NCBI GenBank assembly: GCA_016207065.1
Contig: JACQQK010000127.1
Location: 1 to 37,042 of the forward strand
DNA: 37,042 nucleotides
From: Nitrospinota bacterium
GTDB lineage: Bacteria; Nitrospinota; Nitrospinia; Nitrospinales; JACRGP01
Direction of reading: 5' to 3'
How positions within the stretch are numbered: position 1 is the stretch's first letter; the number at the start of each line of letters is the position of its first letter. The notes beneath the pieces were generated by a model that worked only from the letters and a program-made list of their open reading frames with translations, searched no databases and was not told the origin of the DNA. Shown in pieces: positions 1-25,535 of the stretch. Both the position numbers and the translations under genes were made by a program.

Positions 1-174
1 CCCCTCCCCAGCGTGACGCTGGACTCCATAGGCTCGGCTCCGATGGCGAAGGGGAGTCATCGGGGGCAATCCGGGTTTGGCCATCCCGCTCCGGGGCGTT
101 CCCCGGTCAAGGGAGGGGGAGTAATTTGAGGGTCGAGCCAAAGGGTTTATTTTGTTAGACGCTCTAAGGATGGG
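1..174 (+). repeat. Dispersed palindromic repeat, copy A (left end cut by window)
   Basis: This block is closely similar to 18795-18956. Both carry the near-palindrome CCAGCGTGACGCTGG, then shared text including GGCTCCGATGGCGAA and GGGGGCAATCC. A second hairpin follows (CCGGGGCG, then CCCCGG), and a closing G-rich GGGAGGGG stretch mirrors the C-rich start. The likeness continues weakly past that point to ATTTTGTTAG. No reading frame in it looks real. It is probably a REP- or MITE-like non-coding element; its true left end lies outside the window. Confidence 0.75.
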
Positions 175-9481: not shown

Positions 9482-10576
9482 TTAGAGGAGGAGGGCCGTC
9501 CAGACAAAATCCGCCAGGGGCTCGAACGCGCTCATCGCGTTCCGCGTCTCGGATGCGGATTGCGAAAGCGTCGCGTAATTTATGACCGCGGCGTTGAACT
9601 GGTCGCGGAGGGCGAATATGGAACCGAGAAGGTCCTGGATGTTTTGATATTTTCTCCCCGCGGGTTTTCCCCGCAGGCTCCCCTCCAAATGCATGGCGTT
9701 ATAGAGAACGTCCACCGCCGAAAACAGTTTATGCCGTTTTTCCCCCAGGGACTTGTCCTCCTCGAAGCCCCTTTGCCTTGCGGAAAAATCGGGTCTCTTC
9801 ATGGAGAAAATCAAATAGTACGGCTGGGTCAAGCCCGCGGACTGCAAGGTCCGCGGATGCGTTTCGGGGGCCATCTCAAAGCCGACGAACATCCAGCCTT
9901 CCATCTCCAGAATGGCGGCCGTCGTCCTGGCGAGGATGATGTTATCCAATGTCAGCAAAAGGCAACCACGGTCGCCGAGGAAGTCCTTGGACCGGAAGAC
10001 AAAAAGGGAGGACATCCGGGGGTTGGGCAAAAAGGCCGTCACGCAATCGCACGGAAAAAAATCCGCCTGGCCGGCGCCATCCGAGTCGAGCTTATCGAGT
10101 CCAGCGTCGCGCTGGCCGGGCAAGCGCCCGGAGGCAATTTGCCCCGCCCGGACTGCCCCCGATGACGATTGTTCGCCATCCGAGTCGAGCCTATTAGATA
10201 CAGCGGCGCGCGGGCGGGGGGAAAGATCGCGGATGTCGGTGTCGAACGAAATCTTGTCCCTGACGGATTCCAGGGACCGTTTCATTTCCTCCCGTTCGGC
10301 GGCGGACAGGTTCCGCGCGTTGGCGATGCGTTCGACCTCCTCCAGGACCTTCTCGTATTTCAGGACCTCCACGCCGCGGACCTCGTAGCCGGCGCCGGAC
10401 AACGCCCGCGAACTCTGCCCGTCAAACACGCCCACGTCCAAAACCTTTTTGGCGGAGGAGCCGCCTGGCAACGAATCGACCTCCCGCCAGAGGGATTTCT
10501 TGAGGCCTTCGTCGCCTCCGGATTCAAACCGGACCTTGTTTTTTAGGATCGCTCCGCTAAATAACCTTAACGGCAT
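9482..10576 (-). CDS. SAM-dependent methyltransferase-like protein with a repeat-derived insert
   Basis: Residues 44-55 (KVLDVGVFDGQS) fit motif I of class I methyltransferases, the AdoMet-binding glycine loop, and GVEVLKYE (68-75) fits the acidic end of the second strand. CDCVTAFLPNPR (176-187) could be the motif IV region. The acceptor substrate is unknown. The C-terminal 130 residues are not recognised. Residues about 122-168 are encoded by a copy of the dispersed palindromic repeat, which keeps frame and lies between the expected core strands; they contain LDSDG twice and are low in hydrophobic residues. Without this insert the protein would be about 317 residues. The start ATG at 10576 has a purine-rich AAAAGGGCGGA just upstream. 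The next gene downstream on the same strand is the CHAT gene, but it seems to have its own promoter. Whether the enzyme is active with the insert cannot be told from sequence. Confidence 0.7.
   Translation of the reverse strand: MPLRLFSGAILKNKVRFESGGDEGLKKSLWREVDSLPGGSSAKKVLDVGVFDGQSSRALSGAGYEVRGVEVLKYEKVLEEVERIANARNLSAAEREEMKRSLESVRDKISFDTDIRDLSPRPRAAVSNRLDSDGEQSSSGAVRAGQIASGRLPGQRDAGLDKLDSDGAGQADFFPCDCVTAFLPNPRMSSLFVFRSKDFLGDRGCLLLTLDNIILARTTAAILEMEGWMFVGFEMAPETHPRTLQSAGLTQPYYLIFSMKRPDFSARQRGFEEDKSLGEKRHKLFSAVDVLYNAMHLEGSLRGKPAGRKYQNIQDLLGSIFALRDQFNAAVINYATLSQSASETRNAMSAFEPLADFVWTALLL
10073..10213 (-). repeat. Palindromic repeat inserted in frame inside a coding region
   Basis: Read on the minus strand this stretch matches the copies at 1-174 and 18795-18956: TAGGCTCGACTCGGATGGCGA, then GTCATCGGGGGCAGTCCGGG, a CCGGGCG/GCCCGG hairpin, and CCAGCGCGACGCTGG. 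The element wraps round: a 32-base segment at 10074-10105 recurs with a few changes at 10174-10205, 100 bases apart. The host reading frame stays open through it. It resembles the Rickettsia palindromic elements in being tolerated inside a protein gene, but the sequence is unrelated as far as I can see. Confidence 0.75.
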
Positions 10577-18573: not shown

Positions 18574-18730
18574 AGCTCCTAATAAAATAAATTCCTTTAT
18601 AACTCCCTCCCCCTTGAGGGGGAGGACGGGTGGGGACGCCGGGCAACCGCCCGGAGGCGACGCGGCGATGACGCTGACGCGGTCGCCGGAATGCGAATCC
18701 CCCCGGCCCCCTTTGCAAGGGGGAGTTGCA

Positions 18731-18794: not shown

Positions 18795-18956
18795 GCCCCC
18801 TCCCCAGCGTGACGCTGGACTCAACGGGCTTGGCTCCGATGGCGAAAGGGCGTCATTGGGGGCAATCCAGGCTTGGCCATCCCGTTCCGGGGCGTACCCC
18901 GGAGGGAGGGGATGGTTTTTGCGTCGAGATCGCCGGTTCATTTTGTTAGGCGCTTT
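18795..18956 (+). repeat. Dispersed palindromic repeat, copy B
   Basis: This matches copy A (1-174) in the same orientation over its whole length, with scattered base changes. Shared parts include CCAGCGTGACGCTGGACTC, TGGCTCCGATGGCGAA, GGGGGCAATCC, TTGGCCATCCCG and ATTTTGTTAG. Pyrimidine-rich CCCCCTCCCC at the left mirrors GGGAGGGG at the right of the core, like short terminal inverted repeats. No transposase gene is nearby, so if mobile it depends on an enzyme elsewhere. Confidence 0.75.
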
Positions 18957-23099: not shown

Positions 23100-25535
23100 A
23101 TGTTTAAGCGATTTACGGAGAGAGCCCGGAGAGTGATCATCCTTGCGCGCGAGGAAGCGGAATTGTACCGTCATGAATACCTTGGAACGGAACATATTTT
23201 GCAGGGCGTGCTTAAAGACGGCGGCGGCATAGCCGTAGCCATCGTTCAAAAGGCCGGGGTCGATATCAACCAGATCAAGCAAGAGCTCGAGAAGAACCTC
23301 CCGCGAAGCTCCAACTCATTGATTATTGGCGACATACCATTTACCTCCAGGGCCAAGAAAGTACTGGAGTTCGCGGTCGAGGAAGCTCGCTCGCTGAATC
23401 ATAATTACATTGGCACCGAACACCTCCTTTTGGGTTTGCTCAAGGAAAAGGAAGGCGTGGCGTGCCGGGTGTTGAACAGTTTTGGCCTGTATTTTGACGA
23501 CGTTAAGGAAAAAATCGTCGAGATGTTCAAGGAGCCCCAGGAACAGGCCAAGGAAGGCGGCAAGACCCCCACCTTGGACGAGTTCAGCCGCGACCTCACG
23601 CAGATGGCCATCCAAGGCAAGCTGGACCCCATCATCGGCCGCACCAAGGAAATCGAGCGCGTCATCCAGATCCTGAGCCGCCGGACGAAAAACAACCCGG
23701 TCCTGATCGGCGAGCCCGGGGTCGGCAAAACGGCGATCGTGGAAGGGCTGGCGCAGTTGATCGTGGAACGCGAGGTCCCCGACACCCTGTACGACAAACG
23801 GGTCGTCTCCCTCGACCTCGGTTCGTTGATCGCCGGCACCAAGTACCGCGGCCAGTTCGAGGCCCGCCTCAAGGGCATCATGAAGGAAATCACCCAGAAC
23901 GAGAACATCATCCTGTTCATCGACGAGTTGCACACGCTGGTCGGCGCCGGGGCGGCGGAGGGTTCGGTGGACGCTTCCAACATGCTCAAACCGGCCTTGT
24001 CCCGCGGGGAAATCCAGTGCATCGGGGCGACCACCCTGGAAGAGTACCGGAAATACATCGAAAAGAACGGCGCCTTGGAGCGCCGGTTCCAACCGATCAT
24101 CGTCAACCCGCCCACCGTCGAGGAGACGATCGAGATCATCAAGGGCTTGAAAGTCCCCTACGAGGTGCACCACAAGGCCAGGATCACCGACGAGGCCATC
24201 GTCATGGCGGTGCGCTATTCCGACCGCTACATCAGCGACCGGTTCCTGCCGGACAAGGCCATCGACGTGATCGACGAGGCGGGGTCGCGGGTCCGTCTGC
24301 GCAAACTCACCCAGTCGCCCGAAATGCGCTCCATCCAGCGGGAAGTGGACAGCATCGTGCGCGAGAAGAAGATCTGCATCGAAAACCAGGAGTTCGAGAA
24401 AGCCGTCGAACTGCGCGACCGGGAAGAAGCCCTGCGCGCCGCCATGCAGAAGGAAAAGGAAAAATGGCACGCCGAGCACGAGAAGACCGAGCCCTGCATC
24501 GCCGAGGAAGACATCGCCGCGGTCGTGTCCGGCATGACGGGCATTCCCTTGTCCCGCATCGAGGAAAAGGAAAGCACCCGCCTGTTGAACATGGACAAGG
24601 AACTCGCCGGCAAGATCGTCGGCCAGGACGAGGCGATCCACGTGATCTCCAAGGCCATCCGCCGGTCGCGGTCCGGCTTGAAGGACACCCGCCGTCCCAT
24701 CGGCGTGTTCCTGTTCCTAGGCCCCACGGGCGTCGGCAAGACGGAGCTGGCCGGGTCGCTGGCCGAATTCATGTTTGGCGACCGCAACGCCCTCATCCGG
24801 CTCGACATGTCCGAGTACATGGAGAAGTTCAACGTGTCGCGGCTCACCGGCGCGCCTCCGGGGTACGTCGGCTACGAGGAAGGCGGTCAGTTGACCGAAA
24901 AAGTCCGGCGCAAGCCCTATTCCGTCGTCCTGTTCGACGAAATCGAAAAAGCCAACCCCGACGTGTTCCATCTCCTGTTGCAGATCATGGACGACGGCCG
25001 GTTGACCGACAGTTACGGCCGGCACGTGGACTTTAAAAACACCGTCATCATCATGACCTCCAACATCAGTTCCAAGAGCCTGGAGAAAGGGTCCGGCCTG
25101 GGTTTCCGTTCGGACAACCCCGACCTCAATTACGACAAGATGAAAAAGGACCTGAAACAGGACCTGAAAAAGACATTCAACCCGGAATTCTTGAACCGGA
25201 TCAACGAGGTCGTCGTGTTCCATTCGTTGACGATGGAACACGTGGGACGCATCCTCGACATCAACCTGCAACAGTTGAACGAACAGTTGATCCAGCAGGG
25301 CATCACGCTGGACATGACCGAGGACGCCAAGAAGTGGCTCGCGGAAAAAGGCTACGACTCCCATTTCGGGGCCCGGCCGCTCCGCAGGGCCATCCAAAAG
25401 TACCTCGAGGACGTGCTGTCCGACGAGATGCTGAAGGGACGGTTCAAGAACGGCGGCGTGGTCGAGGTAAGCCTCCACGAGGACGAACTGGTCTTCAGCG
25501 AAAAGTCCGGGGCGCTCAACTCCGCCCTGGGTTAA
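23100..25535 (+). CDS. clpC: ClpC-type AAA+ protease ATPase subunit
   Basis: ClpC unfolds proteins and feeds them into the ClpP peptidase; it also has chaperone roles. The 811-residue length is right. Residues 1-145 are the double Clp N-domain ([20 protein letters not shown], then [19 protein letters not shown]). The first AAA+ module has Walker [10 protein letters not shown] (about 205-213) and Walker B LFIDEL. A UVR-like coiled linker (about 418-455, [20 protein letters not shown]) marks it as ClpC rather than ClpA or ClpB. The second AAA+ module has [10 protein letters not shown] (about 541-550), [10 protein letters not shown], and the C-terminal DFGARPLRR-type element as [17 protein letters not shown]. 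The usual Firmicutes partners ctsR, mcsA and mcsB are absent. AAGGAAAC serves as ribosome site. A strong terminator follows. Confidence 0.95.

Follow-up and report, generated by a model that had tools for sequence, protein, structure and literature searches.

A stretch inside an open reading frame of a groundwater Nitrospinota bacterium matches, on the opposite strand, repeat copies that lie between genes, and it raises the question of whether a palindromic element has been inserted into a gene and is translated there as part of the protein. To our knowledge, few lineages, chiefly Rickettsia and Wolbachia, are known to have translated palindromic elements, which may be tolerated there because selection is relaxed in intracellular parasites. 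In this study, the window (the whole stretch of DNA that was analysed, 37,042 nucleotides) is contig C77 of a groundwater MAG, G000 (2.96 Mb, 190 contigs, 80% complete), and it was compared with the MAG of a genus-mate, G001 (71% complete). The locus is very probably explained by the multiplication, within a single Nitrospinota genus, of a short non-autonomous repeat that forms hairpins and whose genic copies were inserted, are translated in frame and are tolerated. The host gene and the copies in the window are the following.

9482-10576, minus strand: host open reading frame P0001, 364 amino acids, genus-restricted (open frame, G001 ortholog)
10114-10213, minus strand: full unit (unit positions 2-101), in frame in the host reading frame (nhmmer profile of 45 copies)
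10075-10115, minus strand: partial second unit (positions 1-41), directly abutting the first with a 99-bp period (nhmmer; direct repeat)
10099-10120, minus strand: unit-to-unit junction and the 5' hairpin of the second unit, CCAGCGCGACGCTGG with CCCGG before it (sequence; 58-unit alignment)
10075-10120 and 10174-10219: inner direct repeat, 46 nt, 80% identical, 99 nt spacing
8-108, plus strand: intergenic unit enclosed by the arms CCCCTCCCC and GGGAGGGGG, at the contig start (profile, alignment)
18804-18902, plus strand: intergenic unit enclosed by a CCCCTCCCC/GGGAGGGG hairpin and followed downstream by a shared tail to about 18956 (BLASTN, profile, alignment)

The preliminary description had reported that about 141 bases at 10073-10213 match the intergenic copies on the opposite strand, and BLASTN within the window agrees: 10147-10221 aligns with 1-75 (76%, E 1e-10) and 10075-10115 with 8-48 (88%, E 1e-9), with weaker opposite-strand matches of the genic stretch at 18797-18872 and 18804-18844. 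The two intergenic copies are 82% identical to each other over 163 bp, and the covariance model R1 places the full genic unit at 10115-10214 with 88 bits. The reading frame is likewise kept, as had been described; the minus-strand frame is open through the stretch and LDSDG occurs twice in its translation. The direct repeat that had been given as 32 bases at a distance of 100 is present, and its 17 starting bases are identical, but its extent and spacing are those listed above. Since the profile runs through positions 2-101 (10213 to 10114) and then through positions 1-41 (10115 to 10075), the insertion is a tandem of 1.4 units and not one wrapped copy; of the earlier proposal of a tandem or wrapped insertion, the first half stands and the second is not needed.

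An alignment of 58 near-full-length units from both genomes gives a consensus of 99-101 bp that begins with CCAGCGTGACGCTGG and finishes with CCGGGGCGTTCCCCGG. The unit consists of three hairpins in a row, namely CCAGCG-TGA-CGCTGG, a longer imperfect one in the middle and CCGGGGCGTTCCCCGG; there is no pairing between its ends, CCAGCG and CCCCGG, and no terminal inverted repeats were seen in it. The unit is also poor in stop codons, with 3.7 of six frames open compared with 2.86 of six in shuffled sequences. One unit inside a gene corresponds to 33 extra residues (99 = 3 x 33), and LDSDGEQSSSGAVR is an example of a predicted element-encoded peptide. A 41-base short form of the unit, from hairpin 1 through GATGGCG and often followed by CCGG, recurs at the loci below and may mark a second recombination boundary or a sub-module.

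G001:C72:1335-1375: 41-base short form
G001:C119:4123-4163: 41-base short form
Window 10075-10115: 41-base short form

A second hairpin, formed by CCCCTCCCC and GGGAGGGG, surrounds the intergenic copies of the window and many others, and the loop of yet another hairpin is replaced by one copy of the unit. Because copies are nested in other hairpins in this manner, the family behaves like a nested mosaic of small palindromes. Beside the second intergenic copy, other short palindromes (CTCCCTCCCCCTTGAGGGGGAGG, CCGGGCAACCGCCCGGAGG and CCCCCTTTGCAAGGGGG) were observed at 18600-18730 of the window; these recur in the genus, some of them inside open reading frames, and several small palindromic families are present in the genome as mosaics.

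Such an architecture can also be read as that of a REP/BIME-type element moved by a RAYT (a tyrosine HUH transposase), in which case the intragenic copies would be rare accidents. REP/BIME and REPIN sequences with their RAYTs are likewise short GC-rich palindromes that are high in copy number, clustered, mosaic and occasionally genic (PMC3733652, PMC2817692, PMC3116915), REPs having been reported inside coding regions elsewhere (PMC3733652), and Y1_Tnp genes occur in G001 and in its order-mates. However, the unit measures 99 bp and contains three hairpins, compared with the 20-40 bp of REPs, and it has no GTAG or CGTC tag at the consensus ends. Furthermore, no associated RAYT was found; the search for a mobiliser returned no Y1 or RAYT gene from G000, whereas G001 yielded one fragment, amid unrelated repeats, both genomes being incomplete. 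Movement by a RAYT is thus considered an unlikely explanation.

The hairpins themselves are conserved. They were taken from single-sequence folds and then counted in 55 units, in which standard pairs occupy 92.8% of the cells of the three hairpins compared with 21-45% when the partners are slid, double-sided changes occur at four pairs (six sequences, for example, have A-U in place of G-C at columns 4/13) and the covariation score is 0.092 compared with 0.072 in shuffled alignments, above all 500 shuffles, although the covariation is confined mostly to a few pairs and the relatedness of the copies inflates these figures. RNAalifold gave a weak result on the raw alignment because the 3' hairpin of two subfamilies is one column off. 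Conserved hairpins with some compensatory changes, in copies that are mostly intergenic, could point to a structured RNA or regulatory element, such as terminator-like or mRNA-stability hairpins, that is kept between genes and spills over into them. However, no Rfam family matches the window, the presence or absence of copies varies between the sister species, and mobility alone can keep hairpins; a structured-RNA origin therefore appears improbable, and more so than a REP-type element.

The element is dispersed genome-wide, also inside further genes, as the preliminary description had supposed. The covariance model finds at least 117 unit matches in G000 and at least 148 in G001; the copies lie for the most part between genes and as single units, in either orientation and on numerous contigs. 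In both MAGs, contig ends frequently fall in the element, which fragments the assemblies, makes these copy numbers minimum values and leaves the lengths of arrays uncertain. Examples of contigs that end inside the element are the window itself (1-10), G000:C111, G001:C111 and G001:C45. An exact-pattern scan of 84,980 species, in which records of the window's own genome may be absent from the scanned set, returned 39 stretches, all of them from JACRGP01 (NC_groundwater_1754_Pr3_B-0.1um_58_23), the records to which the element coordinates of G001 correspond, and no match to the element was found among IMG/VR viral contigs. Diverged relatives with the same ends and a different middle are present in the sister genus (19 and 15 matches), with single ones further out. 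The sister-genus relatives examined had no coding sequence on both sides and look intergenic; no translated insertion was seen among the sampled loci using a codon model trained on G000, and one sampled locus has an open reading frame across the unit. These relatives have 1.94 frames open compared with 1.84 in shuffles.

To examine copies inside genes, about 470 kb around copies of the unit were fetched; the copies were picked by similarity, so the resulting fractions are not a census. A copy was called genic without regard to the element itself, from 180 stop-free bases on each side with the codon usage of G000. Copies in genes are retained in frame: 13 of the 14 blocks with same-strand coding flanks on both sides are in frame and stop-free through the element, whereas about a third or fewer would be expected if insertion were blind to frame, and the remaining block is the C-terminus of a ParA adjoining the next gene. 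The count is conservative, since the gene of the window and DusB lie just under the flank threshold. Array periods of 95, 96 and 100 occur outside genes, as expected if the frame is selected only within them. By Pfam or structure, the host proteins include YyaL/DUF255, Ppx-GppA, an M20 peptidase, NifU_N-NifU (in which the insert sits in the linker between the two domains), CHASE2 and AsmA-like proteins, and further hosts are O-antigen-ligase-like and OppA-like proteins, a ParB_N protein (weak match) and DusB. The copies use different reading frames and both orientations. Their translation is predicted from open frames, codon usage and conservation; within the translated units, 9 of 178 codons have changed, which is too few to read selection.

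In one species DusB contains a single translated element; in the other it contains two, which are oppositely oriented, within a composite of further repeats. The match of DusB to the PDB stops at residue 202-204, before the insert, so the insert is not tested by it.

G001:C173:573-889: DusB locus
G000:C19:10083-10182: DusB locus

In addition, a large membrane-protein reading frame of G001 (C160) contains several repeat-derived in-frame segments, one of which (G001:C160:6235-6325) is also present in G000 (C144) with identical length.

Sites are gained or lost between the two sister species in steps of one unit. The NifU-like gene is filled in G001 and empty in G000 (296 and 197 bp, a difference of 99), and the M20 peptidase gene also differs by one unit between the two species (299 and 200 bp, again 99), both with clean flanks. 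An O-antigen-ligase-like gene has the element in only one of the two species; in the other, the empty site carries CCCCGGCCCGCG, which is close to the element's own junction CCCCGG-CCAGCG, and the filled site has CCCCGGCCCGCG on both sides. Either target homology or a duplication of CCGG or CCCCGG would be consistent with these empty sites. CCGG is frequent beside genic copies, in sequence of high GC content and with few true empty sites (four informative) for comparison. Insert-free homologues, which the preliminary description had predicted for P0001, were found for these other host genes and for further ones. No insert is present in the YyaL homologues of seven genomes, which belong to five other genera, and the YyaL insert starts at the ASV of the ancestral TASVA; the Ppx host has 41 residues where a solved homologue has 4, and the M20 host has 52 where a solved homologue has 8.

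Head-to-tail arrays also change in unit number. YyaL has two units in G000 and one in G001, with intact reading frames of 773 and 740 amino acids, and a PhnD-like gene has two units in one species and one in the other. Such differences, together with genic tandem units of 99-bp period, are what an ordinary coding minisatellite would give, in which slippage acts within genes and there is no mobility. However, most copies are single units, found in both orientations, on numerous contigs and in a wide range of unrelated genes, and the single-unit empty and filled orthologous sites in the NifU-like and M20 genes contradict a minisatellite as the full explanation. Slippage accounts for the arrays and not for the dispersal, so this reading is rejected as a full explanation and is very unlikely.

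The only homologue of the host gene in the window among 77 genomes of the phylum is in the genus-mate, and it also carries the insert. That ortholog is a fragment, 97% identical, and its contig ends inside the array, in which a full unit is accompanied by the 41-base partial seen in G000 and by part or more of another unit; the array is 1.4 units long in G000 and at least 1.9 in G001. The 198 codons after the array contain 12 synonymous and five nonsynonymous changed codons (dS 0.087, dN 0.011), which indicates a real gene under purifying selection. The gene had been called a methyltransferase, an assignment that is unproven: it rests on a possible class I SAM-methyltransferase motif (VLDVGVFDG, of the VLDVG type) and on sub-threshold matches to TehB (E 0.04-0.07), and no assignment above the cut-off was obtained in Pfam, NCBIfam or the PDB. 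The position between core strands that the preliminary description gave for the insert is likewise unsupported, the AlphaFold2 model from the single sequence without homologues having a pLDDT of 39.5 and being unusable. The notion that the 47 residues are native to the protein and that chance, or gene conversion from a protein repeat, produced the DNA resemblance, which the shared segment and the missing insert-free homologue would allow, has a negligible probability, since the same DNA family occurs between genes and in unrelated genes, in several frames and both orientations, and other genes have empty sites. Coincidental resemblance in particular was rejected, as the intergenic copies and the use of different frames contradict it.

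With the reading of an inserted and tolerated repeat thus preferred, the element can be set beside known systems. Its likeness to the Rickettsia elements, drawn in the preliminary description, holds at the level of what the element does. By the reviews PMC2229807 and PMC10969869 of the Rickettsia palindromic elements (RPE; Ogata et al., 2000, 2002), both are palindromic repeats of about 100-150 bp, intergenic and also in frame in many unrelated conserved genes of one lineage, with no known transposase in those accounts. However, RPE is described there as one long stem with paired ends, whereas the Nitrospinota unit has three hairpins in a row; furthermore, its 99-bp units are arranged head to tail in in-frame arrays that differ between species, and its host is a groundwater Nitrospinota and not an intracellular alphaproteobacterium. 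The Nitrospinota element works like RPE but is not one, being set apart by lineage and architecture. The Wolbachia palindromic elements (WPE; Ogata et al., 2005) are, as PMC4224334 cites them, similarly palindromic inserts in frame in conserved genes without premature stops; they differ in lineage and architecture, and the Nitrospinota case has exact empty sites and unit-number changes between two sister species.

Bacterial MITEs with open frames, such as ERIC/RU-1, YPAL/RU-2, RU-3 and the Correia 107-bp element, are also non-autonomous, about 100-170 bp long and able to form in-frame fusions, and YPAL inserts at or near dyad symmetry (PMC2229807, PMC2759123). However, the ends of the Nitrospinota unit are not mutual inverted repeats, and its arrays are tandem and in frame. 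PARCELs (tandem palindromic amphipathic repeat coding elements) share the property of palindromic DNA that codes for tandem protein units, but they are 25-residue domains of dedicated proteins and are horizontally spread (PMC2996958), whereas the Nitrospinota units are 33-residue passengers in unrelated conserved proteins and also lie in intergenic DNA. Judged from sequence comparison, the unit is a new lineage-specific family of putatively protein-coding palindromic elements, with frame-neutral tandem units and documented empty sites. The groundwater host, the exact empty sites, the in-frame arrays and the housekeeping hosts (DusB, ParA/ParB-like, Ppx and NifU-like proteins) together suggest that an intracellular lifestyle is not needed for such elements. 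The pairs of filled and empty proteins are material on which the cost or benefit of the inserts is directly measurable.

As to mechanism, the unit would insert at short GC-rich palindromes or at sites that resemble the unit junction (CCGG^CCAGCG), moved by a host enzyme or recombination pathway, and unequal crossing-over or replication slippage may then change the unit number. Insertions in surface loops or linkers would survive and be translated as tolerated passengers, because each insertion or array step adds 99 bases and the unit is stop-poor, and frame-breaking insertions would be purged. A more specific proposal, which we hold only tentatively and on balance doubt, is that the unit moves site-specifically or by junction homology at CCGG^CCAGCG-like sites, possibly via an intermediate that is circular or single-stranded, that both insertion and the growth of arrays advance by exactly 99 bp at a time and so leave the frame unchanged, and that selection for translatability has shaped the length and the stop-poverty of the unit. 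If this were true, the junction-guided 99-bp unit would represent a mobile element adapted to life inside genes. The sole Y1 transposase of G001 (C60:21000-25754; contig 23890-24162) is flanked on both sides by another palindromic repeat (TGGAGCGCTACGCG... / ...GCATGCAACGCGAGGACGCGTTGCACTCC), which is probably the transposase's own REP family.
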